64,000 nt of DNA from Microbacterium dextranolyticum (GTDB taxonomy: Bacteria; Actinomycetota; Actinomycetes; Actinomycetales; Microbacteriaceae), in contig NZ_JAFBBR010000001.1 in the NCBI RefSeq assembly GCF_016907295.1, positions 2,046,001-2,110,000 of the forward strand, written 5' to 3'. The notes below the pieces were generated by a model. It searched no databases and was not told the origin of the DNA. It saw nothing but the letters and a program-made list of their open reading frames with translations. Below are positions 40,663 to 56,668 of the stretch, piece after piece. The translations under genes were made by a program, and so were the position numbers. Numbering within the stretch: position 1 is the first letter of the stretch; each line of letters starts with the position of its first letter.

Positions 40663-41934
40663 ATGCCACGCACCCCGACCGAACTGCTGAGCCCCGCCGA
40701 TCAGGAGCGCCGACGGTCTCTGCGCGTCATGAAGGGAGTCGCCCTCGGCGCGCTGGTCGTCATGGCGGTGCTGTTCGTGATCGCGTTCGTGACGCAGGAG
40801 CGGATCCCCGCGATGGCCTACGTCCGGGCCGCCGCCGAGGGCGGGATGGTCGGCGCGCTCGCGGACTGGTTCGCGGTGACGGCGCTGTTCCGACACCCCC
40901 TCGGCATCCCCATCCCGCACACCGCGATCATCCCGAAGCGCAAGGACGAGATCGGCCGTAGCCTCGGCGAGTTCATCGAGACGAACTTCCTCGCAGGAGA
41001 GGTCGTGCGCGCCAAGCTCGAGTCGACGCCGATCGCCGCGACCGCGGGCGCGTGGCTGCGCGATCCGGAGCATGCGGAGCTCGTCTCGCGGGAGGCGTCG
41101 ACGATGGCCGCCGGCATCTTGCGTGCCCTCAGCGACGACGAGGTGCAGGACCTCATCAGCGACCTCGCCCGCGAGCACCTGCTGAGCCCGGAGTGGGCGC
41201 CCACCCTCGGCGGCTGGCTCGAACGCGTCGTCGACGCCGGCGCCCATCACGGTGCCGTCGACCTCGGCATCGACAGCCTCTCGACGTGGCTGCGCACCAA
41301 CCGCGACTCGTTCTCGGGACTGGTGTCGCGCCGCCTGCCGTCGTGGGTGCCGTCGGTGGCGATGCGGCTGGTCGACGACACCGTCTACAACGAGGCCGTG
41401 AAGTTCGCCGCCGCCGTGCAAGCCGACCCCGAGCATCCCGCACGTCATGCGATCGACCGGTACCTCTCCCGGCTCGCGGAGAACCTGCAGCACGACCCCT
41501 CGACGATCGGCCGACTCGAAGACGCCAAGAGCGCCGTCTTCGACAGCCCGCGCGTCCGCGAGCTCGCCGCCGAGGCCTGGAACACCGCCAAGGCGGGTCT
41601 GCTCGCCTCGCTCGCCGATCCCGACAGCGCACTGCGCCGCCGCGGTGTCGCGGCCCTGCGCGAAGTGGGCGACCGGCTCGCGACCGATCCGACGCTGCAG
41701 TCGCGCGTGGATCAGCGCGTCGCCGATGCCGCGGTCTTCGTGGTCGACCGCTACCGCCACGACATCGCGTCGATCATCACCGACACGGTCGAGAAGTGGG
41801 ACCCGGCGGAGACGACCGAGAAGATCGAGCTCATGGTGGGTCGCGACCTGCAGTACATCCGCCTGAACGGCACGGTGGTGGGCGCCCTCGCCGGCGTCGC
41901 GATCTTCGCGATCGCACACGCGTTCCTCGGCTGA
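40663..41934 (+). CDS. DUF445 family membrane protein
   Basis: A 423-residue DUF445/YheB-type protein. An N-terminal membrane helix (GVALGALVVMAVLFVIAFVT) is followed by AAAEGGMVGALADWFAVTALFRHP, the family hallmark, then long helices and a C-terminal membrane helix (NGTVVGALAGVAIFAIAHAF). Function unknown. Divergent from the CsoR-type gene; a CACACT hexamer ends 6 nt before the ATG. Confidence 0.88.
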   Translation: MPRTPTELLSPADQERRRSLRVMKGVALGALVVMAVLFVIAFVTQERIPAMAYVRAAAEGGMVGALADWFAVTALFRHPLGIPIPHTAIIPKRKDEIGRSLGEFIETNFLAGEVVRAKLESTPIAATAGAWLRDPEHAELVSREASTMAAGILRALSDDEVQDLISDLAREHLLSPEWAPTLGGWLERVVDAGAHHGAVDLGIDSLSTWLRTNRDSFSGLVSRRLPSWVPSVAMRLVDDTVYNEAVKFAAAVQADPEHPARHAIDRYLSRLAENLQHDPSTIGRLEDAKSAVFDSPRVRELAAEAWNTAKAGLLASLADPDSALRRRGVAALREVGDRLATDPTLQSRVDQRVADAAVFVVDRYRHDIASIITDTVEKWDPAETTEKIELMVGRDLQYIRLNGTVVGALAGVAIFAIAHAFLG

Positions 41935-41987
41935 CCCACGGCGCGGGCCTCTCGCCGCGTTCACGACGCCGGGGGTACGGTGAAGGC

Positions 41988-42335
41988 GTGAGCGAGCACC
42001 CCGTCGAGCAGCTGCTGTTCACCTACGGCACACTTCAGTACGCCGAGGTGCAGCTCGACACGTTCGGACGGCTGCTCGCGGGTGAGCCCGACACGCTCCC
42101 GGGATACACGATCGACTACGTCGACATCGAGGATCCGCGTGTCGTCGACGTCTCGGGCCACTCCGTCCACCCGGTGATCCGTTTCACTGGAAACCCCCGC
42201 GACAAGGTGGTGGGGCGGGCCGTGCACCTGACCTCCGATGAGTTGGATGCCGCGGACGAGTACGAGGTCTCGCTCTACCGCCGTGTGCGGGTCGCGCTCG
42301 CCAGCGGACGCGAGGCCTGGGTGTACGTCGGATGA
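41988..42335 (+). CDS. Gamma-glutamylcyclotransferase-fold protein (AIG2-like)
   Basis: A 115-residue GGCT/AIG2-like domain: LLFTYGTLQ at the N-terminus and a conserved acidic residue in ELDAADEYE. These small proteins include gamma-glutamylcyclotransferases and gamma-glutamylamine cyclotransferases; the substrate here is unknown. GTG 41988 follows TACGGT (41976-41981) by 6 nt, which decides the start against a long upstream frame overlapping the DUF445 gene. Confidence 0.85.
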   Translation: MSEHPVEQLLFTYGTLQYAEVQLDTFGRLLAGEPDTLPGYTIDYVDIEDPRVVDVSGHSVHPVIRFTGNPRDKVVGRAVHLTSDELDAADEYEVSLYRRVRVALASGREAWVYVG

Positions 42336-42395
42336 CTTCGCCACGCCCACGCGCACGCGACCACGCCCCGATGACATCGAACGAAAGGAGTCCGA

Positions 42396-42869
42396 GTGAC
42401 GACTCTCGTCCTCGTCCGCCACGCCAAGAGCGACTGGGGCGACCCCGGTCTGGACGATCATGATCGCCCCCTGAACACCCGCGGCATGCGCGATGCACCG
42501 ACGCTCGCCGCTCGCCTGGCCGACTCCGGGTTGCGACCCGATGCCCTGCTGTCGTCGACAGCACTGCGGGCACGGACCACGGCGGGCTTCTTCGGATCCG
42601 CTCTGGGCCTCGACGTCGAACTCGATCCGGATCTCTACGGTGCACCGGCCTCGGCGCTGCTCGCGGCCGCCGCAGCGCGCTCCGTCGACGGTGTCATCGT
42701 CGTCGCCCACGACCCCGGCATGACCGTGCTCGCCGAGCGTCTGTCGGGCGGCGGGATCGGGCACATGCCGACGTGCGCCGTCGCGACGTTCCGCTGGAGC
42801 ACTCCCGACTGGGACGTCGCCACCTCCGTCGATCCCGACGAATGGACGTTCGACAGCCCCCGAGGCTGA
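42396..42869 (+). CDS. Histidine phosphatase family protein (SixA-like)
   Basis: A 157-residue histidine phosphatase. The catalytic motif is VRHAKSDWG at the N-terminus, and the second His lies in VVAHDPGM. SixA-type proteins dephosphorylate phosphohistidine or small substrates. AAAGGAG sits 6 nt before GTG 42396, so unlike its neighbour it has a normal ribosome-binding site. Confidence 0.87.
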   Translation: MTTLVLVRHAKSDWGDPGLDDHDRPLNTRGMRDAPTLAARLADSGLRPDALLSSTALRARTTAGFFGSALGLDVELDPDLYGAPASALLAAAAARSVDGVIVVAHDPGMTVLAERLSGGGIGHMPTCAVATFRWSTPDWDVATSVDPDEWTFDSPRG

Positions 42870-42950
42870 GCCAACGCCGCCCGGGGCAAGCGGGTGCAGC
42901 CTGGGCGGCCCGGGCGACCCCTGCTGCCCCTGCGGCCCGATCGACCGGCG

Positions 42951-44531
42951 TCAGGCGGACACGACGACATCCGCCGCGCGCGCGATCTCACCCGACAGCA
43001 CGAGCGCGGTGGCCGTCTCGATGTCGGGGCTGACGACGCGATCCGCGCCGGGTCCGTCGATTCCGGCCGCGCGCACGCGGTCCCGCACGGACGCCGTCGC
43101 CGGCGCGGGCTCCAGCGGCGCACGCAGATCGAGGGCGCGGCATCCCGTCACGATCTCGATCGCGAGCACCCGTGCGAGCCCGTCGATGCCGCGACGCAGT
43201 TTGCGCGCGGCCGCCCAGCCCATCGAGACGTGGTCCTCCTGCATCGCCGACGACGGGATCGAGTCCACCGAGGCGGGCACGGCGAGTCGCTTCAGCTCCG
43301 AGACGATGCCGGCGGCGGCATACTGCGCGATCATGAGGCCCGAATCGACGCCGACCTCGTCGGCGAGGAACGGCGGCAGCCCGTGGCTGCGGGTGCGGTC
43401 GAGCGCCCGGTCGGTGCGGCGTTCGGAGAGGGATGCCACATCGGCCACGGCGATCGCGAGGAAGTCGAGCACGTAGGCCACCGGCGCACCGTGGAAGTTG
43501 CCGTTCGATTCGACCCGTCCGTCGGGGGTGACGACGGGGTTGTCGACCGCCGCGGCCAGTTCGCGCGAGGCGATGAGCGCCGCGTGGGTCGCGGTATCGC
43601 GAGCCGCGCCGTGCACCTGCGGCGAGCAGCGCAGCGAGTAAGCATCCTGGACGCGCGTGCAGACGGCGGGATCACGGTGGCTCGCCATGATGGGCGATCC
43701 GGCCAGCAGCGCGCGCAGCCGGGCGGCCGAGTCCGCCTGGCCGATCTGGGGGCGCAGCGCCATGAGGTCGGCCGCGAACACGGCGTCCGTGCCGAGCTGA
43801 CTCTCAACCGACAGGGCGGCGGCGATGTCGGCGGTGTCGAGCAGCACGCCGAGGTCGTGGAGGGCGAGCAGCAGCATGCCGAGCATGCCGTCGGTGCCGT
43901 TGATCAGGGCGAGCCCCTCCTTCTCCTGCAGGACGAGGGGCGCGATGCCGGCGGCGGCGAGGGCGTCGTATGCCGCGACGAGCGCTCCTGACCCGTCCCG
44001 CACGTCCCCCTCGCCGATCGCCGCGAGCGCGACGTGCGAGAGCGGCGCGAGGTCGCCCGAGCATCCGAGCGACCCGTACTCGCGCACGATCGGCGTGATG
44101 TCGCTGTTGAGCATCGCCGCGTAGGTCTCGACGACGATGGCGCGCACGCCGGTGCGTCCGGTGGCGAGGGTCTGCAGACGCAGCAGCATGAGGACGCGGA
44201 TGACCTCGCGCTCGACCTCGGCGCCCGTGCCCGCGGCGTGCGAGCGGATGAGGCTCGCCTGCAGCTGGCGACGCCGCTCCGGAGCGATGAAGGTCGTCGC
44301 GAGCGCGCCGAAACCGGTCGACACGCCGTAGTGGGGCTGGGGGTCGTCTGCGAGCCGCTCGATGAGCGCGCGCGACGCCGCGACCGCATCGAGCGCTGCG
44401 GGCGAGATCGCGACGCGGGCACCGTTGCGCGCGACCGCGACGACCTCGGCCGGTGTCAGGGGATGCTCCCCGATCGTGACGGTGACGGGGGTGCGGACGG
44501 ATGCGGGCTCGAGCACGGCGGAGGAGGTCAT
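42951..44531 (-). CDS. hutH: Histidine ammonia-lyase family protein with Cys-Ser-Gly cofactor triad
   Basis: A 526-residue aromatic amino acid ammonia-lyase. The catalytic Tyr68 lies in HYGVSTGFG. The MIO-forming site reads SLGCSGDLAPL, so the triad is Cys157-Ser158-Gly159 instead of the usual Ala-Ser-Gly; QEDHVSMGW is also present. The family converts His to urocanate (or Phe/Tyr to cinnamates). No hutU, hutI or hutF gene is nearby, so the substrate is uncertain. It is divergent from an IclR gene that probably controls it. ATG 44531 is used; no Shine-Dalgarno is seen. Confidence 0.85.
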   Translation of the reverse strand: MTSSAVLEPASVRTPVTVTIGEHPLTPAEVVAVARNGARVAISPAALDAVAASRALIERLADDPQPHYGVSTGFGALATTFIAPERRRQLQASLIRSHAAGTGAEVEREVIRVLMLLRLQTLATGRTGVRAIVVETYAAMLNSDITPIVREYGSLGCSGDLAPLSHVALAAIGEGDVRDGSGALVAAYDALAAAGIAPLVLQEKEGLALINGTDGMLGMLLLALHDLGVLLDTADIAAALSVESQLGTDAVFAADLMALRPQIGQADSAARLRALLAGSPIMASHRDPAVCTRVQDAYSLRCSPQVHGAARDTATHAALIASRELAAAVDNPVVTPDGRVESNGNFHGAPVAYVLDFLAIAVADVASLSERRTDRALDRTRSHGLPPFLADEVGVDSGLMIAQYAAAGIVSELKRLAVPASVDSIPSSAMQEDHVSMGWAAARKLRRGIDGLARVLAIEIVTGCRALDLRAPLEPAPATASVRDRVRAAGIDGPGADRVVSPDIETATALVLSGEIARAADVVVSA

Positions 44532-44589
44532 GATCCGATTCCATCGCGACCCGTTCGATGATCCGGCGGTCTCGTGCGATCCTGTGTCT

Positions 44590-45375
44590 GTGATCCCAGA
44601 CATTCACGATCCGGGTGCGGCTCGTGCGCCGCAGGTCCCGGCCGCGGATCAGACCCTGCGCATCCTGTCCTTCCTCGCTCGGCAGCGCGGCCCGGCCGCG
44701 GCGCACGCGATCTCCGATCACCTCGGCATCCCCCGATCGAGCGTCTACCACCTGCTCGCCGCGATGGCCGCGCACGGTTTCGTCGTCCACATCGCCTCCG
44801 AGCGCCGCTGGGGCCTCGGGACGGCAGCGTTCGAGCTGGCCGGCGGCTACACGCGCCAGCAGCCCCTCGCCCGTCTCGGCCGCCCGCTCGTTTCGGGGCT
44901 CGCCGATCGCGTCGGCGAGAGCGCGCACCTCGCCGTTATGACGGGGCGAGACGTCCTCTACATCGTCGAGGAGCGCGCGCCACGGCGCCCCGCGCTCGTG
45001 AGCGAGGTGGGTGTGCGCCTCCCCGCGCATCTGGCGGCGACGGGCCGCGCCATGCTCGCCGCGCTGCCGCGAGAGCAGGTGCGGGCACTGTACCCGGATG
45101 CCGCGACGTTCGCCGACCGCACCGGCCGGGGCCCGCGGCGCCCGAGCGAACTGCGCGACGTGCTGCGACGCACCAGGCAAGACGGGTACGCGAGCGAGGA
45201 CGGAGAGGTCACCCTGGGGTTCCGCTCGATCGGTGTCGCCGTCCTCGACCACACCGGATGGCCCGTCGCCGCACTCGCGGTGACGTGGGAGGCCGCGGCC
45301 ACCGCCCTCGCCGGCGCGTCCGTCGCGCCGGCGGTGCGCAGCGCCGCCGATGAGCTCTCTCGGCGCCTGCGCTGA
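44590..45375 (+). CDS. IclR family transcriptional regulator
   Basis: A 261-residue IclR regulator: N-terminal winged helix (LRILSFLARQRGPAAAHAIS ... SSVYHLLAAMAAHGFV) and a GAF-like ligand domain (ALVSEVGVRLPAHLAATGRA). I choose GTG 44590, 6 nt after GATCCT, because this leaves room for promoters between the divergent genes; ATG 44530 would overlap hutH. It probably regulates the ammonia-lyase gene. Confidence 0.87.
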   Translation: MIPDIHDPGAARAPQVPAADQTLRILSFLARQRGPAAAHAISDHLGIPRSSVYHLLAAMAAHGFVVHIASERRWGLGTAAFELAGGYTRQQPLARLGRPLVSGLADRVGESAHLAVMTGRDVLYIVEERAPRRPALVSEVGVRLPAHLAATGRAMLAALPREQVRALYPDAATFADRTGRGPRRPSELRDVLRRTRQDGYASEDGEVTLGFRSIGVAVLDHTGWPVAALAVTWEAAATALAGASVAPAVRSAADELSRRLR

Positions 45376-45393
45376 GAACGATCGGACGCGCGC

Positions 45394-45879
45394 TCAGTCG
45401 ACGCGCGCGATCGTCCCGCCGGTGAGGGCGACCAGTTCGTCGAATGTCAGGGGGAAGACCGTGTGCGGGGTGCCGCCGGCGGCCCAGATCTCGGGGAACG
45501 CGGCGAGCGCCTCGTCGACGACGGTGACGAGGCGGGTCGGATGCCCGGTCGGCGCGACGCCGCCGATCGCCTGCCCGGTCGCTTCGCGCACCTGCTCGAC
45601 CGAGGCGCGCGCGATGGTTCCGCGGCCGATCCGCGCGGCGAGCGCGACCGTGTCGACGCGGTGCGCGCCACTGGTCATGACCAGCAGCGGATCGCCATCC
45701 GACCAGAACACGAGGCTGTTGGCGATCGCCCCCACCTCGATCCCGAGGGCGGCCGCGGCGAGAGCGGCCGTCGACGCGGCATCCGGCAGCACGACGATCT
45801 CCCCGCCGACACCGGCTGCGCGCAGGGCGTCGTGGACGAGTCGACTGCGTGCGGAAAGGCTCTCTGCGCTCATGCTCAC
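45394..45879 (-). CDS. YbaK/EbsC-type aminoacyl-tRNA deacylase
   Basis: A 161-residue YbaK/ProX-like editing domain. The Lys-containing pocket of YbaK is changed to NSLVFWSDGDPLLV, and GGVAPTGHPTRLVTVVDEAL matches the family GG.SP.G signature. Members deacylate mischarged Cys- or Ala-tRNA-Pro. It converges with the IclR gene. ATG 45879 or 45873 could be used. Confidence 0.82.
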   Translation of the reverse strand: MSMSAESLSARSRLVHDALRAAGVGGEIVVLPDAASTAALAAAALGIEVGAIANSLVFWSDGDPLLVMTSGAHRVDTVALAARIGRGTIARASVEQVREATGQAIGGVAPTGHPTRLVTVVDEALAAFPEIWAAGGTPHTVFPLTFDELVALTGGTIARVD

Positions 45880-45925
45880 ACCTTAGCCAGGCCGTCCGCC
45901 GCCCCCGTTCCGCCGACGCACCCTC

Positions 45926-46615
45926 GACGGCGACACCGCCGAGCTGGCGGGGCGTCGCCTCGGTGCCCGCATGATGCAGGGGTACGGCATGAGCGAGCTG
46001 AGCCCTGTCTCGCATGCGATGCCGTACACGCGCGACGACGTTCCGGTCAGCTCGGTGGGGACGATCCTGCCGAACATCGTCTGCAAACTGGTCGACACCG
46101 CCTCGGGCGAAGAGATCACCGAGGTCGAGGCGGAGGGCGTGACCCGACCGGGCGAGCTCTGGGTGAAGGGGCCGAATGTGATGCTCGGCTACCTGAATCG
46201 GCCCGAGGCCACCGCGGAGACGATCGACGCCGATGGATTCCTGCACACCGGCGACATCGCCGTCTATCACGAGGGCGGCTACTTCTCGATCGTCGACCGG
46301 GTCAAGGAACTGATCAAGTACCACGGCTACCAGATCGCCCCGGCCGAGCTCGAAGCCCTTCTGCTCGGCCATCCGCAGGTGATGGATGCCGCTGTCATCG
46401 GCGTCCTCGACGACGAACGCGAGGAGATCCCGAAGGCGTTCGTCGTCGCGGCGCCCGACTCCGGCCTCACCGCCGAGGAGGTCATGTCGTTCGTCGCCGA
46501 AAACGTCGCACCGTACAAGAAGGTGCGGAGGGTGGAGTTCGCGGACGCGATCCCGAAGTCGACGTCGGGAAAGATCCTCCGGAAGGACCTCCGCCTACGG
46601 GAGCAGGGCGCCTGA
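45926..46615 (+). pseudogene. 5'-truncated acyl-CoA ligase (4-coumarate-CoA ligase-like)
   Basis: An in-frame stretch that matches only the C-terminal part of the ANL superfamily. It starts near DGDTAELAGRRLGARMMQGY (the P-loop-side motif QGYGMSELSP), then GELWVKGPNVMLGYLN, DGFLHTGDIA, DRVKELIKYHGYQIAP and the catalytic Lys in STSGKILRK. An open frame with ATG 45971 gives 214 residues, against about 500 in the family; the ATP-binding SSGTTG motif is missing. The ybaK gene starts directly before it, so a rearrangement probably removed the first 60 %. It may be untranslated. Confidence 0.75.
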
Positions 46616-46637
46616 GCCACGCTCGCGGGCGGATTCC

Positions 46638-46676
46638 GAAGAGGGCCCCGTCTCGGCAGAAGACGGGGCCCTCTTC
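46638..46676. terminator. Bidirectional terminator
   Basis: A perfect 16-bp stem (GAAGAGGGCCCCGTCT, 46638-46653, and its complement at 46661-46676) with a 7-nt loop. It lies between the ligase remnant on the plus strand and the FMN reductase on the minus strand, 18 bp before the latter's stop, so it can serve both. Confidence 0.85.
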
Positions 46677-46693
46677 ATCGTGCGATCAGCGGG

Positions 46694-47260
46694 TCACTCG
46701 ACCGGGCTGAGGCTCTTCGCGATGTGCGTGTGGACGGCCTTCAGCCACGACAGCAGGAAATCGGCGGTCGACTCGTCGGTGACCTGGCCCTCGTCGTCGA
46801 TCAGTCCGTCGCGCAGGTGGATGTACGCCTCGGGCTGCGAGAGCTCGGGAGAGGCGAGGAAGGAGAGGATCGACCGCAGGTGCTGCTGCGCGACAGCCGT
46901 GCCGATGGCGCCGACCGAGGCGCCGATGACGGCCGACGGCTTGCCGGCGAAGCTGTTGTCGCCCCACGGACGGCTCGCCGTGTCGAGAGCGTTCTTCAGG
47001 ACGCCCGGAACGGAGCGGTTGTATTCGGGAGTGACGATCACGACGGCGTCGGCCGACTCGATCGCGGACTTGAACTCGGCGGCCTCGGCGGGAATCGCAC
47101 CGTCGTTGTCGTACGAGTAGAAGGGCAGACCCTTGATCGGGATCTCGGTGAGCGCGAGGTCGGCCTGAGGTGCGAGAGCGATGAGGGCCTTCGCGAGGCG
47201 ACGGTTGATGGACTCCGTCGCGATGGAGCCGATGATGACGCCGACGTTGTAGGTGGTCAT
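46694..47260 (-). CDS. NADPH-dependent FMN reductase family protein
   Basis: A 188-residue flavodoxin-fold reductase. The N-terminal GSIATESINRRLAKALI is the FMN phosphate loop, VTPEYNRSVPGVLKNALDTA is the family signature, and GASVGAIGTAVAQQHLR follows. Such enzymes reduce FMN, quinones or azo dyes with NAD(P)H. A modest AAGG ribosome site precedes ATG 47260. The gap to 47412 contains no gene. Confidence 0.92.
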   Translation of the reverse strand: MTTYNVGVIIGSIATESINRRLAKALIALAPQADLALTEIPIKGLPFYSYDNDGAIPAEAAEFKSAIESADAVVIVTPEYNRSVPGVLKNALDTASRPWGDNSFAGKPSAVIGASVGAIGTAVAQQHLRSILSFLASPELSQPEAYIHLRDGLIDDEGQVTDESTADFLLSWLKAVHTHIAKSLSPVE

Positions 47261-47411
47261 GAAGAACGAGCCTTTCCGAGAATCGATTCAGGTGCATACA
47301 TACTACCCGCGTATGCGAGACGCGACTGGGCACCGAGAGGTGAAACGTCGGTGACATCCGATCGAATTCCTTCGCACGACGGATGCATGCGGCGTCGCCG
47401 CGGCGAGAGCG

Positions 47412-48455
47412 TCACGCGCCGTCACGCCGCGTGGATTCGCCCTCGACCAGCGCGACGGGCAGCACCCGCGCCGAACCGTATCCCGGGGCGTGGGCTCCGT
47501 TCATGGCTTCATCGAGGAGCTCCATCGCCCGGGCGGCGATGCCCGGCCAATCCTGACGGATCGTGGTGATCGTCGGCGAGATGCGCTGTGTCCACGCGAT
47601 GCCGTCATAACCGCACAGCAGCAGATCGCCGGGAATCGATCGCCCGGACTGCTGGGCCTCGAACAGGGCGCCGATGGCCTGCATATCGCTCAACGCGAAG
47701 ACTGCATCGACGTCGGGCGCCTCTTCCAGCAGCTCCGCCATCCCCGCCTGGCCGCCGTCCATGCCGTAGGCCGACCCGGCGATGGTGACCGCCGACGCCG
47801 GTACGCCACGATCGGCGAGACCCGCCAGAAAACCGTCGCGGCGCTCCTGAGTGGAAGGCAGGTAGCCGTTGCCACCGACGAGGCCGAAACGCGTGCCCCC
47901 CGCATCGACGAGGTGGTGCGCGGCCGTCCGCCCGCCTCCGAAGTTGTCCGAGCGCACCGATCCGGCGATCAGCAGCGAATCCGCGGGCTCATCGCACGTC
48001 ACGATCGGCACCGGCGACGCGGCGAGCCGGTGCAGGCCCGACCGCGGCGGCCGGGAGGGCGAGACGATGATGCCGTCGGCGCTCTGCACGAGGGTCTCGA
48101 GAGCCTCGAGCTCCTGGTCGGGCTCATACCCCGATGACGCGAGGACGATCGACCAGTCGCGAGAGGTGCCCTCCTGCTCGAAGGCGTGCGCGAGCTCGGC
48201 GTACGCCGGGTTGCGGACATCGGGCAGCACGATGCCGACCGTGATCCGATCGGTGCGGGCGCGCCCGCGCGCCGATCCTGAGCGGGAGTATCCGAGGCTC
48301 GCCGCCGCTTCGAGGACGCGCTCGCGCAGCGCGACGCTCACGCCACGACGGCCGCTGAGCGCGTTGGATGCCGTGGCGAGCGATACTCCCGCGGCGGTGG
48401 CGACCTCTTGAAGCGTGGGTGTGCGAGTTCCTGAGTCTGCCTGCGTGTCGTCCAT
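47412..48455 (-). CDS. LacI family regulator at the end of the FolE-ABC operon
   Basis: A 347-residue LacI/GalR regulator: HTH PTLQEVATAAGVSLATASNA, hinge, then ligand domain ITVGIVLPDVRNPAYAELAH. AGGAGGGG precedes ATG 48455, which excludes the longer frame reaching 48548. It is the last gene of the minus-strand operon beginning at 53707, with an 89-bp gap after the amidohydrolase, so it may also have its own promoter. It is the obvious candidate to bind the 19-bp palindrome upstream of the operon. Confidence 0.87.
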   Translation of the reverse strand: MDDTQADSGTRTPTLQEVATAAGVSLATASNALSGRRGVSVALRERVLEAAASLGYSRSGSARGRARTDRITVGIVLPDVRNPAYAELAHAFEQEGTSRDWSIVLASSGYEPDQELEALETLVQSADGIIVSPSRPPRSGLHRLAASPVPIVTCDEPADSLLIAGSVRSDNFGGGRTAAHHLVDAGGTRFGLVGGNGYLPSTQERRDGFLAGLADRGVPASAVTIAGSAYGMDGGQAGMAELLEEAPDVDAVFALSDMQAIGALFEAQQSGRSIPGDLLLCGYDGIAWTQRISPTITTIRQDWPGIAARAMELLDEAMNGAHAPGYGSARVLPVALVEGESTRRDGA

Positions 48456-48544
48456 CGCCCCTCCTGCTGCGAGCCCGCCCGCCGGGCCGATACCCACCCC
48501 GTCCCGAGTGTAGGGGAGGCTCCGACCGCTCCCCCGCTGTGCGC

Positions 48545-49351
48545 TCATTCCAGCTCCGCTCGCAGCCGGGCGATCTCGCGAAGGACGTCGGCGAGCGCGA
48601 GACCCTGCGCATGCAGCGCCTCACGCCCCCACTCCGCCGACGCGCCGGTGGGATCACCGATCGTGCCCGATGCCGATACGTCGCGTGTACGCCACGGCAG
48701 CGGGACGGCACCGAACAGTCCCACGCTCGGAGAGACGGCGCCCGTCGCGAGGGCATCGATCCGGTCGATGCCGTCGGCCGCGGCGAGCGGCAGCCGCACC
48801 GCAGCGGGGTGGAGGGCCAGCAGCACGCTCGTCTCGTAGAAGCCGGCGTGCACATCGAGGTCGGCGCGGCCCATCTGGTCGGCGAGCGCCGCCGGCAGGG
48901 GCAGGCTGGGGCCGTGCACCGAGACGGCGAGAACACCGGTCTGATCGCGGATGTCGCGGGCGACCACCTGCAGCAGCTCGGGATTGCCGCCGTGGGCGTT
49001 GACGAAGACGAGGGTGCGGATGCCCGCCGCGGCGACGGAGCGCGCGATGTCAAGACACACCGCGAGCAGGGTCGTGGACGACAGCGTCACCGTGCCGGGA
49101 AAGCCGGCATGTTCGGGCGACAAACCGTAGGCCAGCGTCGGGAGCATCCAGAGCGATGGGGCATCCTCGTCGCCCGATGCGGCACGCGCGTGCACAGCGT
49201 CTGCCGCGGCCTCGGCCAGCGCGGTCGCGATCAGCGCATCCGTCGTCAGGGGAAGGTGCGGGCCATGCTGCTCGGTCGCGCCGATGGGTTGCACGGCGAT
49301 GCCGCCGGCGGCGGCGATCGCCGTGACGTCGGGCGACGTGGGGTCGATCAC
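48545..49351 (-). CDS. Creatininase family amidohydrolase
   Basis: A 268-residue creatininase-family metalloenzyme. The metal-binding QPIGATEQHGPHLPLTTD (Glu27, His29, Asp38), VFVNAHGGN and DVHAGFYETS are all intact, so it should be active. Known members hydrolyse creatinine, process mycofactocin (MftE) or deformylate formamidopyrimidine in archaeal flavin synthesis (ArfB). GTG 49351 lies two bases after the stop of the folE-like gene, which implies translational coupling. ArfB-like deformylation of the FolE-like product is the hypothesis I favour. Confidence 0.85.
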   Translation of the reverse strand: MIDPTSPDVTAIAAAGGIAVQPIGATEQHGPHLPLTTDALIATALAEAAADAVHARAASGDEDAPSLWMLPTLAYGLSPEHAGFPGTVTLSSTTLLAVCLDIARSVAAAGIRTLVFVNAHGGNPELLQVVARDIRDQTGVLAVSVHGPSLPLPAALADQMGRADLDVHAGFYETSVLLALHPAAVRLPLAAADGIDRIDALATGAVSPSVGLFGAVPLPWRTRDVSASGTIGDPTGASAEWGREALHAQGLALADVLREIARLRAELE

Positions 49352-49353
49352 GC

Positions 49354-49950
49354 TCAGAGCCCGATCAGGCTGCGAGCCTCGGCCCGCTGCACGGGGTCGG
49401 AGTCGTAGACGCCGCGGCTCGACACCGAGAACGCCTCCGATCCCACGGTGCGCTCGCCCCGCGCCCACATGCAGGCCTGTTCCGCCGAGAGCACGACGAG
49501 CACTCCTCGGGCGCCGATCGTGTCGACGACCGTCTGGGCGATCTGGTCGGCGAGGCGCTCCTGCATCTGCGGGCGCGCGGCGAGCACGCGGATCATCGCA
49601 TCGAAGTCGCCGATGCCGGCCAGCATCCGATCGGGCAGGTAGGCCACCGACACGACCCCCTTGAAGGGCAGCATGTGGTGCTCGCAGACGGAGGAATAGG
49701 GGATGTCGCGCACCACGACCGGTCCGGGGTAGACGCCTTCGATGGGTTCGCCTCCCCCGAGCGCACGCACCGGGTCTGCGTGCAGTCCGCGGAAGAGATC
49801 GAGTCCGGCCTGCGCGACCCGTCGAGGCGTGTCCACGATCGTCGGGTGGTCGGCGTCGAGGCCGAGCGCGATCATGAACGCGCGGTACGCGCGTTCGGCG
49901 GCGTCGAGGTCGGCGGGGGCGCCGGAGGCGGCGACGGGGGTGAGGGCCAT
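49354..49950 (-). CDS. Divergent GTP cyclohydrolase I paralogue (His179 replaced by Gln)
   Basis: A 198-residue T-fold protein of the GTP cyclohydrolase I family. Zinc ligands are kept: Cys89 and His92 in CEHHMLPF, and Cys160 in QACMWARG. The GTP-binding ARPQMQERL is present. Two catalytic surroundings differ from E. coli FolE: Gln158 stands where His179 is (two residues before the second zinc Cys), and the GLSK segment around Ser135 reads GIGDF. E. coli His179 mutants stop at the formylaminopyrimidine. A housekeeping folE is expected elsewhere in the genome. It sits between ABC transporter and amidohydrolase genes. Confidence 0.85.
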   Translation of the reverse strand: MALTPVAASGAPADLDAAERAYRAFMIALGLDADHPTIVDTPRRVAQAGLDLFRGLHADPVRALGGGEPIEGVYPGPVVVRDIPYSSVCEHHMLPFKGVVSVAYLPDRMLAGIGDFDAMIRVLAARPQMQERLADQIAQTVVDTIGARGVLVVLSAEQACMWARGERTVGSEAFSVSSRGVYDSDPVQRAEARSLIGL

Positions 49951-50000
49951 GGATCTGCCTTCTTTCGGTGCGACGGGAGGGGGGAAGGAGCGGGTGGTGT

Positions 50001-50819
50001 TCAGTGGAACAGGAGGGCGGTGGCGCGGTCGACGTAGTGGTGGAACTCGGGGGTGGCCATCATCTCGATGGTGCGCGGGCGCGGCAGGTCGACGTGGATG
50101 ACCTCTTTGATCGTTCCGGGGCGGGGACTCATGACCGCGATGATGTCCGACAGCAGAACCGCCTCGTGGATGCCGTGGGTCACCATGACGGCCGTCGCGC
50201 CCTGCTCCGACCAGAGGCGCTGCAGTTCGAGGTTGAGACGCTGGCGCGTCATGTCGTCGAGGGCGCCGAACGGCTCATCGAGGAAGAGGACGCTCGGGCG
50301 CAGCGCGAGCGCGCGCGCGATGGCCACACGCTGGCGCATGCCGCCGGACAGCTGCCAGGGGCGGGCGCGGGCGAACTCGGTCAGACCGACCAGTGCCAGC
50401 AGGTCGGCGATCCAGTCGCGGTCGACGGGGACGCCGGCGACGTCGAACGGGAAGCGCACGTTCGCCTCGACGGTGCGCCACGGCAGCAGCGCGTGATCCT
50501 GGAAGGCGATGCCCAGCTGCTTGCGCCGACGCAGCTCCGCGGGCGCCATGCCATTCACGGAGGCCTCTCCTGCCGTCGGCGTATCGAGATCGGCGAGGAT
50601 GCGCAGGATCGTCGACTTGCCGCATCCGCTGGGTCCGAGAAGCGAGAGGAAGGATCCGCGCGGGGTGTCGAGGTCGACGCCGGACACGGCGTGGACCACA
50701 CCGTGGCGGGTGACGAACTCGCGCGTGAGGCCGCGCAACCGCACCCCGACCGGGACGGCGGGTTCGATCTCATCGGCGGCCGGCGACGCGGCGGGAAGAT
50801 GTGCGGCAGCGCTCGTCAT
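50001..50819 (-). CDS. ABC transporter ATP-binding protein (nitrate/sulfonate/THI5-type)
   Basis: A 272-residue ATPase: Walker A GPSGCGKST, Q-loop FQDHALLPW, signature LSGGMRQRVAIARAL, Walker B VLFLDEPFGALD, H-loop VTHGIHEAV. The LLPW after the Q-loop is typical of the nitrate/taurine/thiamine-precursor group. Its start overlaps the permease stop (50816) by 4 bp. Confidence 0.93.
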   Translation of the reverse strand: MTSAAAHLPAASPAADEIEPAVPVGVRLRGLTREFVTRHGVVHAVSGVDLDTPRGSFLSLLGPSGCGKSTILRILADLDTPTAGEASVNGMAPAELRRRKQLGIAFQDHALLPWRTVEANVRFPFDVAGVPVDRDWIADLLALVGLTEFARARPWQLSGGMRQRVAIARALALRPSVLFLDEPFGALDDMTRQRLNLELQRLWSEQGATAVMVTHGIHEAVLLSDIIAVMSPRPGTIKEVIHVDLPRPRTIEMMATPEFHHYVDRATALLFH

Positions 50820-51646
50820 GTTGCGCCTCCTCGGCGGACGACGGTGGATGGGGGCGGGAAGCGGCCGGCGAGTGCCAGCCGTTCGGCCAGGGCGACGGCG
50901 CCGTAGGCGGCGAGGGCGAGGGCGATGGTGACGACGACCAGCGTCCACAGCAGTCCGTAGTCGGAGTAGGACTTGCTGGTCAGCAGGTTCGCTCCGAGCC
51001 CTTCGAACGAGAACAGGAACTCGTAGAGCGTCGCGGCGGAGATGGTCGCCGGAGCGGCGATCTTGAGACCCGCGAACAGGTAGGGCAGCGCGCTCGGCAG
51101 CTGCACGCGCCAGAGCAGTGTCACGCGTCCGCCGCCGTACGCGTGGACGAGGTCGACGGTCTCGGCGGATGCCGCCGCCATCCCGGTCGTCACGTTCATC
51201 AGCAGCGGGAAGAAGGTCACAACGCCGGCGATGACCGCCGCAGTGACGATCCCCGCGCCGAAGACGGCGTAGATGACGGGCGCTATGGCGATCAGCGGCA
51301 CGGTCTGCAGCACGAGCGCGATCGGCAGGAAGGTTCCGCGCAGCCCGCGCGACACCGACATCGCGATCGAGCCGACGAGGCCGAGCGAGACGCCGAATGC
51401 CAGTCCGACGCTCGCATGCAGCAGTGTGACCCCGATCATCGGTACGAGGGCTGCACGCCGGTCGGCTGCTGCGGCGGGCGTGAACCTGCCGTCGACGAGA
51501 AGGTAGTCGAACACGTCGAGCGGCGTCTTTGTGAGATACGAGCTGACGTGACTCATCGAGACGGTCAACTGCCACCCCACCAGCAGGACGACGAGAGTGG
51601 CGAGGGTCGTCAGGATCGGCACCAGCCGAGGGCGCAGTCGATTCAT
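50816..51646 (-). CDS. ABC transporter permease (second of two)
   Basis: A 276-residue permease of the BPD_transp_1 SsuC/ThiX type. About six membrane segments and an EAA-like loop SAETVDLVHAYGGGRVTLLWRV. It overlaps both neighbours by 4 bp. It resembles the other permease (51643-52491) in the EAA region, which shares VDLVHAYGG, so the two probably arose by duplication and form a heterodimer. Confidence 0.9.
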   Translation of the reverse strand: MNRLRPRLVPILTTLATLVVLLVGWQLTVSMSHVSSYLTKTPLDVFDYLLVDGRFTPAAAADRRAALVPMIGVTLLHASVGLAFGVSLGLVGSIAMSVSRGLRGTFLPIALVLQTVPLIAIAPVIYAVFGAGIVTAAVIAGVVTFFPLLMNVTTGMAAASAETVDLVHAYGGGRVTLLWRVQLPSALPYLFAGLKIAAPATISAATLYEFLFSFEGLGANLLTSKSYSDYGLLWTLVVVTIALALAAYGAVALAERLALAGRFPPPSTVVRRGGAT

Positions 51647-52491
51647 CGTCGGCCTCCGGTGACGTGGCGGGTCCAGGGCGCGATGGCGGCGGCCACCACA
51701 GCGAGGGCTGCGTAGCCCGCGGCGGAGACGGCCGTGGCCAGCAGGGCGATCGCCCACATGCCGGTGTAGTCACCCACGTACTGCTGCGAGATCAGCAGGC
51801 GACCCACTCCGGCGTCGACTCCGACGGCGAAGAACTCGCCGGTCATGGCGCCGAGGAAGGCGGCCGGTGCGCCGATCTTGAGTGCGGTCAGAAACGCCGG
51901 CAGCGCGCTGATGAGGCGGACACGTCGGATCGCGGTGAGCTCTGTGCCGCCGTACGCGTGGACGAGATCGAGTTGGGCGGGGCTGGTCGCACGCAGGCCG
52001 AGGAGGACTCCGATGATCATCGGAAAGACGACGGCGAGTACGGCCAGTACGACGCTGACCGCGCGCGAGCCCGAGGGCGAGAGCAGCACGACGATGGGGC
52101 TGATCGCGGCCACCGGGATGCACGCGGCGATGATGCCGAGCTGCGTCGCGAAGGCATCCAACACAGGCGCAAGGATCACGGCAACGCCGAGCACGAGGGC
52201 GATCGCGACCGCGATCACGTATCCGGTGAGGGCGGAACCTGCTGTCGCGGCCAGGCCCGACCAGTATCCGGCGTCGCTCAGGTTCTGCGTCACGCGCGCC
52301 AGGACGGCACCGGGAGGGGGAACGGCGCCGTAGGTGCCGTTCTCGCGGGTGAACATCGTGACAGCCACCAGTTGCCACGCGACAACGATGAGGATCGCCC
52401 CGATCAGCCCGGTGAGCGTCGTCGTCAGCACGGGCCGCGAGATGCGCACGACGCCGGGGGCACGGCGCAGGCGCAGAGAAGGAGCGGTCAT
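51643..52491 (-). CDS. ABC transporter permease (first of two)
   Basis: A 282-residue permease with about six membrane segments and the EAA-like loop PAQLDLVHAYGGTELTAIRRV. GGAGAC lies just before ATG 52491. The stop overlaps the start of the second permease by 4 bp. Two permease genes in one THI5-type operon are found in pyrimidine and riboflavin-type transporters (e.g. RibXY-like sets). Confidence 0.9.
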   Translation of the reverse strand: MTAPSLRLRRAPGVVRISRPVLTTTLTGLIGAILIVVAWQLVAVTMFTRENGTYGAVPPPGAVLARVTQNLSDAGYWSGLAATAGSALTGYVIAVAIALVLGVAVILAPVLDAFATQLGIIAACIPVAAISPIVVLLSPSGSRAVSVVLAVLAVVFPMIIGVLLGLRATSPAQLDLVHAYGGTELTAIRRVRLISALPAFLTALKIGAPAAFLGAMTGEFFAVGVDAGVGRLLISQQYVGDYTGMWAIALLATAVSAAGYAALAVVAAAIAPWTRHVTGGRR

Positions 52492-52567
52492 GATGTCTCC
52501 TGTCGCGTGTGGTGGAAGGATGCCGGGGCGAGGGGGGCGCCCCGGCATCCGGTTCGCGTCGGCGTCG

Positions 52568-53707
52568 TCAGGACGCCGGGACGGTGAAGCCGGCGATGAG
52601 ATCCGGGTTCTCCGTGTAGAGCTCGCTCAGCAGGGAGGTATCGAACTCGGAGGCGTCCGCGGTGATGCCCGCCGCCCCCAGGGAGGACACGGCCTGCGTG
52701 ACGAGGTCGGGCGTCAACGTGAAGATGCCGTTCTTGACGGTGTCGGTGGTGAGCATGAAGCTCGGCAGCACCGTCGCGCTGGAGAGCTGGAGCTTGGCGT
52801 CGAGGTCGTTGTCCTTACCGCCGTACTCCATCGCGATGTCGGCGATGCCTTGCGGCCCGGCCTTCAGCGCGGCGTTCCACCCCTGGATGACCGACTTCAT
52901 CATCGCCTTGACCTCGTCGCGGTGGTTAGCCAGCATGTCGTCGCTGACGACCACGGCGTCGCCGAACTGGGCGTAGCCGGCGTCGCTGAAGCTGAGCGTC
53001 ACGACGTCGCCGCCAGCCTGCTTCACCGCGATCGGGTAGTTGGTGAGGAACCCGACGAGTGCATCGACGTCGCCCTTCATGAGCGGGTCGATGCCGTTGG
53101 GCACCGAGACGAACGTGACCGTGTCGGCGGGCAGTTTGTTGGCGGCGAGGACCGCTTCGACAGCGAGCTTGCCACCCGCGTCCACGCCGATCTTCTTGCC
53201 CTTCAGGTCGGCGACCGAGGCGATGGGGTTGCCCTTGAGCGAGACGAAGCCGACCGGGCTCTTCACGAACTGCGCACCGATGATCTTCAACGGCGCCCCT
53301 CCGTGGATCGCGCCGGTGATACCGGTGAGGTCAGACGCGAGGCCGATCGTCGCGTTGCCGGCCAGCACGGTGTCCCACGGGTTCGTGGTGCCGCCGCCGG
53401 CGATGATGTCGACCGACGAGAAGCCGTTCTTCGTGTAGTCGCCGTTCTTGTCGGCGTAGTAGTAGCCGGCGAACTCGTAGTTCTTGATCCAGCTGAGGGC
53501 GACTCCCCCGGTGCCGAAGTCGGCGGTGCCGGCGGAACTCGTGGTCGCCTCGGGAGAGCTCGCACAGCCCGAGAGCAGGACGGCAGCGGTGGCGGCGACC
53601 GCTAGCGCGGTGGTGAGGCGGGAACGACGGGTGAAGCGGGTGGAGCGGGTGGAGCGGGAGGAACTGAGCGCCATATCGGATGCGGCGCGCGGAATCGGGT
53701 GCGTCAC
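52568..53707 (-). CDS. THI5/NMT1-type ABC substrate-binding lipoprotein
   Basis: A 379-residue lipoprotein. Lipobox LLSGC gives lipidated Cys48 after an Arg/Ser/Thr-rich n-region with repeated TRSTRFTRR. The mature part begins VALSWIKNYEFAGYYYADKN and has GVDAGGKLAVEAVL, both typical of NMT1/THI5-like proteins that bind thiamine pyrimidine precursors, riboflavin or nitrogen heterocycles. I choose GTG 53707 since GGAGGT lies 6 nt before it; ATG 53674 is the alternative. First gene of the operon down to 47412. Confidence 0.88.
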   Translation of the reverse strand: MTHPIPRAASDMALSSSRSTRSTRFTRRSRLTTALAVAATAAVLLSGCASSPEATTSSAGTADFGTGGVALSWIKNYEFAGYYYADKNGDYTKNGFSSVDIIAGGGTTNPWDTVLAGNATIGLASDLTGITGAIHGGAPLKIIGAQFVKSPVGFVSLKGNPIASVADLKGKKIGVDAGGKLAVEAVLAANKLPADTVTFVSVPNGIDPLMKGDVDALVGFLTNYPIAVKQAGGDVVTLSFSDAGYAQFGDAVVVSDDMLANHRDEVKAMMKSVIQGWNAALKAGPQGIADIAMEYGGKDNDLDAKLQLSSATVLPSFMLTTDTVKNGIFTLTPDLVTQAVSSLGAAGITADASEFDTSLLSELYTENPDLIAGFTVPAS

Positions 53708-53741
53708 TGTGAGACCTCCATCTCGTTCGCGGGACGCACTC

Positions 53742-53760
53742 AACGTAAAGTCTTTACGTT
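53742..53760. promoter_or_regulatory. 19-bp palindromic operator upstream of the FolE-ABC operon
   Basis: AACGTAAAGTCTTTACGTT is a perfect palindrome (9-bp arms around a central T), 35 bp upstream of the binding-protein start. It is much more AT-rich than its surroundings. The LacI regulator encoded at the end of the operon is the likely binder, although LacI operators usually have an even length with central CG. Confidence 0.72.
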
Positions 53761-53913
53761 TCGTGAATTGGCGACGGTTGTTTCACCGGTGTTACCTTTC
53801 GCGCCGCCCTTCGTCTGGTCGTCACGTCTGGTCGTCACGTCAGGTCATCGGCCGGCGTGCGCGAGGGAGTCCGACGAAAGGCTGTTCGGCCTGCCGTGCT
53901 CTAGCCTCGTGTC

Positions 53914-54255
53914 GTGATTCATCTCGTCGCGCGACGTATCCGCCCAGATCACCGCGATCGAGTGGTCGACTGGTTGCGTCAGGTCGATGGCCCTCGTCGC
54001 TTGGAGGCTCTGGAGTCGCTCGCCGCCGAAGGCGTCGAGCACGAAGCCGCGATGATCGTCGACACGAGCGACGGCCCCATCATCGTGTACGCAATGCAGA
54101 CCGACGACCTGGCACGTTCACGCGTCGTAGCGGACGAATCTGCGCGCTCGGTGGATGCTGAGCACCGCGCCGTGATGCGGGATGCCGATGATGGACCGGC
54201 CCGTGCCGAGATCGTGCTCGATCTGCGTCCCGAGGAACCTGGCGCCACTCGGTGA
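53914..54255 (+). CDS. DUF6176-like small protein
   Basis: A 113-residue soluble protein. The pattern of RRLEALESLAAEGVEHEAAM followed by GPIIVYAMQTDDL fits DUF6176, a small family with a ferredoxin-like fold and no known function. TAGCCT (53902-53907) ends 6 nt before GTG 53914, indicating a leaderless transcript. The 54256-54462 interval after it is lower in GC and holds no gene I can support. Confidence 0.68.
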   Translation: MIHLVARRIRPDHRDRVVDWLRQVDGPRRLEALESLAAEGVEHEAAMIVDTSDGPIIVYAMQTDDLARSRVVADESARSVDAEHRAVMRDADDGPARAEIVLDLRPEEPGATR

Positions 54256-54462
54256 GCACTCGGATACAGGTGAGTGCGGCGAGGAGGGCGATCGTGCCTC
54301 GGTCCACGACCACGGGTGTCGCAACGGATAGCTGCCCCCGCCGACACCATATTCCGTGGCATGCGAACGCAACTACGTTACGGCCCTTTTGTCAACACAA
54401 TGACTATCGACGGTCCGGTGGCAAGGTCAAGCTCCTGTGCCCGCGCTCTTGGCTGCCCGACG

Positions 54463-54921
54463 TTATCCAGTGGACGCTGATTCAGCTCTATCGAGGAACA
54501 TCTCGACTCGATCACGCACATGCCTGTGCATCTCTAAGAAGGCGGCTAGCTCGAGTCCGTGGAGCATCGCCGCACGGCCGTTGATTTGGGCAAGTTCCTG
54601 GATGTCTTGCTTGTACTGTGCGAGTTCTGCGGCCGAGAAAGGATGTGACTGCGGCTCGTAGGCCGCTGGCGTGGCGGCAGCTTCAGACTGCTCGAACGAC
54701 GCTGCCTGAGCATCCGGTGCCGTTGTTTCCAGCACATATCGAATGACCATCGCTTGATACACATCGAGCTGTTGACGGGATTGCTCAAGAGAGAGACGGG
54801 ATTGCTCGAGAGAGTGCTGAACTCTTGTCGCGGCCGATCGTTGCTGGTAGACAACCGCCCAGACGGTCGCAGCTGCGGCGAGTAGCGTTGCGACGACTCC
54901 GGAGGCTGCGAGCCAGTCCAT
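54463..54921 (-). CDS. Unknown membrane-anchored coiled-coil protein
   Basis: A 152-residue protein with an N-terminal membrane helix (ASGVVATLLAAAATVWAVVY), then a Gln/Ser/Leu-rich coiled coil (LEQSRLSLEQSRQQL) and a helical C-terminal part. Codon use is clearly less GC-rich than in neighbours, which suggests acquired DNA. I do not recognise a family; the layout resembles small anchored signalling or defence-associated proteins, but nothing more can be said. Confidence 0.55.
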   Translation of the reverse strand: MDWLAASGVVATLLAAAATVWAVVYQQRSAATRVQHSLEQSRLSLEQSRQQLDVYQAMVIRYVLETTAPDAQAASFEQSEAAATPAAYEPQSHPFSAAELAQYKQDIQELAQINGRAAMLHGLELAAFLEMHRHVRDRVEMFLDRAESASTG

Positions 54922-55240
54922 CTTTACCGTCCTTCATGTCCAGCATACGAAGAGAACTACTCGCTGGACCCGTCGCGATAATGCTAAGGCTCAGAAGTGC
55001 CCGCATACCAGGAGAGGGAGGCCGCGACGATCACTGGTTCCGGTGAACGACTACGCCCGAGCGTCGACATCCATCCGACCCGAGATGATCCTCCGCACAG
55101 CGTACGTCGCGCGTCTGACACGATGCACCGCACCGGCAACCAAGCGTTCTTCAACCGATCCGCTTTACACGCAATGAGAACGTGACAGCGCTGGTCGACA
55201 AAACCACTCGCCGGAGCGTCACTGAGACCGCAAAAGCAAA
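54922..55240. other. Lower-GC intergenic stretch
   Basis: No convincing gene is seen between the coiled-coil protein and the tRNA terminator. Short open frames exist on both strands, but none has a ribosome site or family signature. The region lies on the 3' side of tRNA-Ala, where integrated DNA often sits; I could not find a copy of the tRNA 3' end that would mark an attachment site. Confidence 0.5.
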
Positions 55241-55267
55241 CGGCGCCTCTCTGAAAGAGAGACGCCG
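55241..55267 (-). terminator. Terminator of the tRNA-Ala gene
   Basis: CGGCG and CTCTCT arms pair with AGAGAG and CGCCG (one C/A mismatch between the two stem parts). On the minus strand the hairpin is followed by TTTGCTTTTGC, eight bases after the tRNA 3' end. Confidence 0.75.
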
Positions 55268-55275
55268 CTTTGTCG

Positions 55276-55351
55276 TGGTGGACCTAAGGAGATTCGAACT
55301 CCTGACCTCCTCGATGCGAACGAGGCGCGCTACCAACTGCGCCATAGGCCC
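55276..55351 (-). tRNA. tRNA-Ala (anticodon CGC)
   Basis: A 76-nt cloverleaf with encoded CCA. Acceptor GGGCCTA pairs with TAGGTCC and contains the G3-U70 wobble that identifies alanine tRNA. The anticodon stem CCTCG/CGAGG encloses TTCGCAT (anticodon CGC), and the T loop is TTCGAAT. It reads GCG codons, common in this high-GC genome. Confidence 0.95.
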
Positions 55352-55420
55352 AATAACGTCATCTACCGTATCACGCGCCGCGGCGGCTTCCGTACACGGG
55401 ACGGCAGGCAGGATGGAGGG

Positions 55421-56626
55421 ATGAGTTCTCCCCTCTCGCCCGTGACCCTCATCCGCAATGTCCGCGTGCCGTACGGCGGCGCCGATCACGCCGTCGACAT
55501 CGCCGTCGAGGGCGACACGATCACCGCCGTCCCACCCGCAGATCGCAGCGCGGCATCCACCGCGACGGCGCCGGGCAGTTACGACGGCCGCGGACTGCTC
55601 GCACTCCCCGGCCTCGTCAACGCGCACGCGCACATCGACAAGTCGTGGTGGGGTCTGCCGTGGCAGTCCTACGGCGGCGAGGGCACCACCGAGGGCCGCA
55701 TCCGGCACGAGCGCGCGCGACGCGATGAGATCGGGATGCCCTCGGTCGAGATCACACGCCGGGTGCTCGACCAGTTCGTCGCCCACGGCACGACCGCCCT
55801 GCGCACACACGTCGACGTCGACCTCGGCCTGGGTCTGCGCGGCATCGAGGTGGTGCGTGAGGCGCTGGCGGCGTACGGCGGGGCGCTCACGGCTCAGATC
55901 GTCGCGTTCCCCCAAGACGGTGTGCTGCGCCGCCCGGGCGTGCTGGCCCTGCTCGAGCAGGCCGCACGCGAGGGAGTCGACCACATCGGCGGGCTCGACC
56001 CGGCCACGATCGATCGCGACCCGGTCGGTCAGATCGACGCGCTCGTGGGCCTCTCCGCCGAGCACGGTGTCGGCATCGACATCCACCTGCACGACCCCGC
56101 CGAGCTGGGTGCGTTCCAGATCGAGCTGGTGCTCGACCGCGTGGAGCGTCTCGGACTCGAGGGCCGCGTCACGATCGCGCACGGCTTCGCCGTCGCCCAG
56201 CTCGCCGACAGCCGCCGACGCGATCTGCTCGCCCGTATGGGAGAGGCCGGCGTCACGATGACCACGGTCGCACCTCTCCGACTCCCCCAGCTCCCGCTGC
56301 ACGAGCTCGACGAGCACGGTGTGGCCTTCGCGTTCGGCACCGACGGTGTGCGTGACCTGTGGAGCCCGTACGGCACCGGAGACCTTCTCGGCATCGCGTG
56401 GCAGTACGCGCGGGCATCCAGCCTCGTGCACGACGACGACCTGCGCCGCGTGGTCGAGATCGCAACCGGCGCCGGCGCGCCGTTCGCCGGACTGCCGGCG
56501 AACGAGCTGCGCGTCGGCGATCGGGCCGACATCGTGCTGATCGACGCCGAGAACCCGATGGATTCCCTCGTGCGCACGCCGCCGCGCGAGGCCGTGATCG
56601 CCGGCGGTCGCCTCCTCGTCGGCTGA
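55421..56626 (+). CDS. Amidohydrolase family protein (cytosine deaminase-like)
   Basis: A 401-residue metal-dependent amidohydrolase of the CodA/TrzA group. Metal-site motifs are NAHAHIDKS, LHDPAELG-type HxH in IDIHLHDP, IAHGFAVAQL and FGTDGVRD. Members deaminate cytosine, isocytosine, melamine-like or guanidine-type heterocycles; the substrate here is unknown. A GGAGGG-type ribosome site directly precedes the ATG. It is about 1.7 kb from the THI5-type transporter operon, but on the other strand and beyond the tRNA. Confidence 0.85.
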   Translation: MSSPLSPVTLIRNVRVPYGGADHAVDIAVEGDTITAVPPADRSAASTATAPGSYDGRGLLALPGLVNAHAHIDKSWWGLPWQSYGGEGTTEGRIRHERARRDEIGMPSVEITRRVLDQFVAHGTTALRTHVDVDLGLGLRGIEVVREALAAYGGALTAQIVAFPQDGVLRRPGVLALLEQAAREGVDHIGGLDPATIDRDPVGQIDALVGLSAEHGVGIDIHLHDPAELGAFQIELVLDRVERLGLEGRVTIAHGFAVAQLADSRRRDLLARMGEAGVTMTTVAPLRLPQLPLHELDEHGVAFAFGTDGVRDLWSPYGTGDLLGIAWQYARASSLVHDDDLRRVVEIATGAGAPFAGLPANELRVGDRADIVLIDAENPMDSLVRTPPREAVIAGGRLLVG

Positions 56627-56668
56627 GCCATCGAAGCCCCGGCGGCGAGAGAGCTCAGCCGGGGACGG

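Follow-up and report, generated by a model that had tools for sequence, protein, structure and literature searches.

The DNA analysed here is a stretch of 64,000 nucleotides from Microbacterium dextranolyticum (the window), in which a first-pass annotation had singled out a gene for a FolE-like protein and the adjoining gene for a creatininase-family amidohydrolase. Both genes belong to a seven-gene operon on the minus strand, on which that annotation was silent. Four genes of an NMT1/THI5-type ABC importer come first, followed by the FolE-like gene, the creatininase-family gene and a gene for a LacI-family regulator, so that the pair lies in the 3' part of the operon; a 19-bp palindrome stands in front. 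The perfect palindrome, AACGTAAANNNTTTACGTT (53742..53760, no strand), is a likely operator. It precedes the gene for the substrate-binding protein of the importer (52568..53707, minus strand; PF09084, 114.9 bits, cut-off 20.5), for which the list of open reading frames (ORFs) gives a start at 53743; from the sequence we prefer the GTG at 53707, which stands behind GGAGG. The remaining importer genes encode permease 1 (51643..52548, minus strand; PF00528, 41.8 bits, cut-off 26.4), permease 2 (50816..51646, minus strand; PF00528, 73.7 bits, scored on the longer ORF 50816-51757, with 51646 as the start predicted from the sequence) and the ATPase (50001..50789, minus strand, start predicted; PF00005, 108.2 bits, cut-off 25). 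All four proteins thus score above the cut-offs of the families that make up such an importer.

The FolE-like protein (49354..49950, minus strand) has 198 amino acids, begins with ATG and carries Gln158 at the position of E. coli His179. Two bases past its stop codon lies the GTG start of the creatininase-family gene (48545..49351, minus strand), a spacing that had been noted before and is read directly in the sequence. The ORF of the LacI-family regulator (47412..48548, minus strand; PF00356, 49.4 bits; PF13377, 90.5 bits) overlaps the creatininase stop codon, and the regulator is also present in the other 12 operons described below. Downstream of it is an FMN-reductase-family gene (46694-47260), which is probably outside the operon because the 12 other operon loci gave a single match to it (L110).

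Orthologues of the FolE-like protein, defined by E 1e-72 or better, were found in 10 of 366 genus genomes, the genome of the window among them, and in a family sample of 398 genomes in that genome and 3 further ones; the order sample (396 genomes, E 1e-45) gave no orthologue besides the window's own. All seven genes stand in one order in 13/13 loci, that is, in the window and in the 12 other genomes carrying the FolE-like gene; a contig end cuts the binding protein in L113 and the regulator in L118, and the match to the ATPase of L118 is split in two. With E of 1.6e-60 or lower, creatininase orthologues occur in the same ten genomes, of 361 from the genus. The next match, in G325, is close in E-value (8.8e-58) and has 48% identity, with no FolE-like gene adjoining. 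The proposed coupling of the two genes therefore holds, both being present in 13/13 operons and, at the cut-off used, in the same ten genomes of the genus. A scan of genome contigs returned at least 80 loci in other bacteria at 33-43% identity. Plasmid-borne orthologues were considered and rejected: the 242 plasmid records that matched all had less than 60% identity, with a best value of 41.1%.

The palindrome was found through words shared among the operon loci. It stands 34 bases ahead of the preferred first start codon, and 0 matches are expected in shuffles. In 11 of 13 genomes the pattern derived from it (at most one mismatch) occurs at the operon and nowhere else in the genome; as to the other two, the contig of G348 ends inside the binding protein gene (L113) and no site was found in G229. 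Scanning with a fixed LacI-type consensus gave no site common to the operons. We predict that the LacI protein binds the palindrome. Riboswitch control was rejected, as tRNAs alone were detected in window positions 40000-60000 and in 8 of the remaining 12 operon loci.

Alignments to solved FolEs and to E. coli FolE agree with the first-pass annotation on the main residues of the FolE-like protein: Cys89, His92 and Cys160 align on the zinc ligands of FolE, and Gln158 sits on His179. An alignment of the clade comprises 41 rows, 13 from operons and 28 from database proteins (with some proteins counted in both), and residues are given below in E. coli numbering. The zinc ligand positions Cys110, His113 and Cys181 are Cys, His and Cys in 41/41 rows, and the equivalents of His112, Gln151, Glu152, Arg65 and Arg185 are invariant as well (41/41). 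Trp183 (41/41), Ala or Thr at 139 (41/41) and Asp136 (39/41) mark the clade, and the Arg139 equivalent is gone in all 41 rows. In E. coli FolE, Arg139 and Lys136 are taken here to hold the triphosphate. PMC7750480 describes human Arg216, which we matched by numbering to the Arg185 equivalent, as holding the beta and gamma phosphates. Because Arg185 and Arg65 are kept, the loss of the phosphate grip is only partial. The GLSK segment around Ser135 had also been pointed out as altered. GIGDFDA indeed aligns on GLSKINR, but the loss of Ser135 and Lys136 is no special mark, since 25/25 canonical FolEs of the family have Gly135 and are without Lys136.

The protein scores 156.7 bits with the FolE family model PF01227 (cut-off 27) and barely passes the subfamily model NF006826 (163.8 against 162). 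With the equivalog model TIGR00063, scored on the FolE-like protein alone, it reaches 133.7 bits against a cut-off of 181.6, and the catalytic His179 of family members is Gln in the window protein. Its structure model (pLDDT 94.1) gave 50 listed Foldseek matches, all of them GTP cyclohydrolase I, and the FolE fold is predicted with confidence. In the tree, the FolE-like clade has a support of 100/100 and a stem of 0.91 and falls inside the FolE group of the family, with a nearest branch of five FolEs, two of them named Naasia; this placement makes it a duplicated and diverged folE. Likeness to GTP cyclohydrolase I (FolE) thus extends to fold, zinc ligands, the equivalents of His112, Gln151, Glu152 and Arg185 and descent from the family's own folE. 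The FolE-like protein differs from FolE in the clade marks at 136, 139 and 183 and in having Gln or His at 179, and its gene differs in forming an operon with an importer and a creatininase-family gene, while 11/13 of the genomes also have a canonical folE.

Gln at position 179 had been the starting point of the earlier interpretation, which named His in orthologues of the operon as an outcome that speaks against it. His is what 11 of the 13 operons have, and Gln is restricted to the window and its 97% relative (G200). Since Gln is not fixed among the operons, it cannot define operon function, and we discarded it as a defining mark. What does stand is that His179 is loosely held in the clade: the 41 rows divide into 30 with His and 11 with Gln, compared with 25 His and 0 Gln in 25 canonical FolEs of the family (14 of which were chosen as closest to the query) and with 80 His, 1 Asp and 0 Gln in 81 other FolEs. 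A tree made without column 179 needs three changes, of which starred branches force two, and a single origin is not rejected (p-AU 0.245). Judging from this tree, Gln arose two or three times in the FolE-like clade, though possibly only once.

The partner protein belongs to the creatininase superfamily (PF02633, 220.6 bits, cut-off 31.3) and scores below the cut-offs of three narrower models: creatininase TIGR04448 (90.3 bits, cut-off 235), MftE TIGR03964 (141.5 bits, cut-off 172) and IolN NF041098 (43.1 bits, cut-off 245). The structure model (pLDDT 95.4) has a creatininase fold, and Foldseek gave 26 matches with E of 0.001 or lower, each of them a creatininase or a creatinine amidohydrolase. 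Glu27, His29, Asp38, His120 and Glu173, presumably the metal ligands by homology, are invariant in 45 aligned homologues. The description of the metal site as intact is correct for these five residues, but Glu122 of Pseudomonas creatininase is Gly122 here, like 3lub, so the site is that of the wider family and not identical to that of creatininase. The suggested parallel with ArfB is not supported by the curated ArfB model NF033501, with which the partner scores 21 bits (cut-off 180). According to PMC9478397, the creatininase-family protein BrbF is a formamidopyrimidine formamidase, and bacterial BrbF acts on a monophosphate made by a still unidentified cyclohydrolase. The partner is like these formamidases (BrbF/ArfB) in superfamily and conserved site residues, and their formamide hydrolysis is the activity that the operon model proposed below needs. 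It differs from them in scoring far below the ArfB model, and no link to riboflavin genes was seen. Elsewhere in the genus, relatives of the creatininase-family protein (L256-L269) have ABC importer genes near in 10 of 14 loci, without a FolE-like gene; amidohydrolase, FAD-oxidase and PNPOx-type genes are near in L261, and amidase and isochorismatase-family genes in L256. By gene content, these loci may represent another uncharacterised heterocycle-type operon.

Thiamin salvage includes the uptake of formylaminopyrimidine by a ThiY-type importer, together with an amidohydrolase. At E 0.001 the binding protein has a single solved relative, 3ix1, an N-formyl-aminopyrimidine binder (E 5.5e-6), and the operon resembles the thiamin system in combining an NMT1/THI5-type importer with an amidohydrolase. 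It differs in that the hydrolase is from another family, a FolE-like enzyme is added and no thiamin riboswitch was found in window positions 40000-60000 and in 8/12 loci.

To characterise the importer relatives, 48 loci (L160-L207) were picked down the match list and searched over 12-18 kb for purine markers (adenosine deaminase, nucleoside hydrolase, xanthine dehydrogenase and XdhC), which were drawn from L160, L162 and L165, themselves counted. In the nearest large importer clade, adenosine deaminase was present in 12/16 loci, 7 of these 12 also having nucleoside hydrolase. At least one purine marker was found in 9/24 loci of the next importer clade and in 2/8 others, compared with 1/19 control loci (9-18 kb). 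Purine markers were absent in 25/48 surveyed importer loci and in 12/12 other FolE-like operon loci, and some importer relatives adjoin glycosidase, argininosuccinate synthase-type, agmatine deiminase-family or decarboxylase genes. In the binding-protein tree the sister relation is weak (88/68) and the stem long (0.94); L175, a locus with adenosine deaminase, joins the operon binding proteins at 96/93, flagged as a possible long-branch join. An importer paralogue in own genome (L160, G000:C1:3145000-3162000) adjoins adenosine deaminase (above the curated cut-off), xanthine dehydrogenase, XdhC and a MobA-like protein; a deaminase-family protein is also encoded there. This locus and L162, L163 and L165, all from Microbacteriaceae, have a homologous importer with a binding protein 41-46% identical to ours; they differ in gene order (binding protein-ATPase-permeases) and carry adenosine deaminase, nucleoside hydrolase or xanthine dehydrogenase where our operon has the FolE-like and creatininase-family genes. 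Our best guess is that the importer ligand is of purine type.

A separate canonical folE, whose presence the first-pass annotation had left to be looked for, exists in own genome, as does GTP cyclohydrolase II. No bypass of the latter is therefore needed for riboflavin, and this part of the earlier proposal falls. Of the 12 other operon genomes, 10 likewise have canonical folE; none was found in the remaining two, G229 (81% complete) and G458 (99% complete). From G458 it is cleanly missing: the start of folP lies 18 bases past the ftsH stop codon on one contig (L296, G458:C5, 7314-7343), whereas folE stands between ftsH and folP in two genomes of the same genus. G458 keeps folP, folB and folK, a search for FolE2 found none there, and its FolE-like protein (L122), which has His179, is the only FolE-family protein found. 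From this one genome, the His form may lead to pterin: the FolE-like protein of G458 may be the source of dihydroneopterin, unless the species imports pterins or folate, which is also possible.

A search of a library of open-licence papers gave no description of the operon, and the gene content of the operon suggests an undescribed uptake and opening of a purine-like ring compound. We tentatively read the locus as an operon, under local regulation, for taking up and processing an exogenous guanine-like N-heterocycle (a purine base, a nucleoside or a near relative), a reading that we consider quite possible while stopping short of calling it probable. The importer would bring in a purine-type ligand, which the LacI regulator would sense, acting at the palindrome. 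The FolE-like protein would open the imidazole ring by the zinc chemistry of FolE, as family chemistry and the kept residues suggest, on a substrate that could lack a triphosphate group. Hydrolysis of the resulting formamide (or another amide) would then fall to the creatininase-family enzyme, and because the partner can do this step, Gln179 would be tolerated. The product would be a diaminopyrimidine or, with the His179-bearing orthologues, possibly a pterin. The presence of an importer and a LacI regulator argues for an exogenous ligand rather than cellular GTP. The operon is without any enzyme for later steps, and G458, which seems to rely on the FolE-like protein as its only FolE, speaks against a purely catabolic role. 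A more specific proposal, which we judge rather unlikely, is that GTP cyclohydrolase I is split here: the FolE-like protein would open the ring of a guanine nucleoside or base imported in unphosphorylated form, and the partner would take over formamide hydrolysis, yielding a diaminopyrimidine or dihydroneopterin directly. Once that hydrolysis, normally done at FolE's own site with His179, had moved to the partner, His179 would be free to drift to Gln, which would explain both its loose conservation and the loss of canonical folE in one species. If true, such a split would give salvaged purines a new path into pyrimidine or pterin metabolism.

These proposals have to be weighed against three others. 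The FolE-like protein could be a functional second copy of GTP cyclohydrolase I, converting GTP to dihydroneopterin triphosphate, the importer and creatininase serving another step. The full set of base-binding and zinc residues, the passing NF006826 score and the retention of folP, folB and folK in a genome without canonical folE or FolE2 all speak for it; yet the Arg139 equivalent is lost in 41/41 rows and His179 in 11/41, the TIGR00063 score stays below the cut-off, 11/13 operon genomes keep a canonical folE and the tie to importer and creatininase is left unexplained, so that we regard it as unlikely. The pathway put forward by the first-pass annotation, in which the FolE-like protein turns GTP into formamidopyrimidine triphosphate and the creatininase deformylates it towards riboflavin or an unknown product, appears more doubtful than any other reading discussed here. 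In work attributed to Bracher in 1999, His179 mutants of E. coli FolE reportedly form formamidopyrimidine triphosphate, and Gln occurs in the window protein and in 11/41 clade rows; BrbF (PMC9478397) adds a precedent. Against it stand His in 11/13 operons, the GTP cyclohydrolase II in the genome, the low ArfB score and an importer and LacI regulator that are unexpected for cellular GTP. The coupling, the conserved creatininase residues and the loosely held His179 count in its favour, but the fixity of Gln, the need for a bypass and the match to ArfB do not survive. In Gln-bearing lineages the GTP route keeps some probability, although the genomic context gives it no support.

It is also improbable, in our view, that importer and creatininase handle the substrate while the FolE-like protein does a job other than purine opening, such as binding, regulation or hydrolysis of another ring in a non-purine. 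This would fit the creatininase relatives of the genus that lie near ABC importers without a FolE-like gene (10/14 loci), as well as the amidohydrolase, FAD-oxidase or amidase genes in the creatininase-relative loci scanned. However, the FolE-like protein keeps its metal and base-recognition residues unchanged in 41/41 rows, which makes a non-catalytic role unlikely, and no riboswitch in window positions 40000-60000 or in 8 of 12 related loci hints at a thiamin precursor.

FolE homologues are automatically annotated as folate enzymes. Under the uptake-and-processing reading, the association of one FolE branch with an importer, an amidohydrolase and a regulator would show ring-opening chemistry reused on imported compounds. 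The natural His/Gln variation at a catalytic position, together with a genome that lost canonical folE, offers a direct way to test which steps have to take place at the FolE site.

Among the importer relatives, most loci of the adenosine deaminase/nucleoside hydrolase clade (L162, L163, L165, L168-L174, L177, L178, L180, L181) have a gene for a luciferase-like monooxygenase next to the importer. A GH1 glycosidase gene lies beside the importer in L185, L189 and L197, with an ALO-type FAD oxidase adjoining in L185 and L197; the GH1 neighbours might point to glycosylated ligands.
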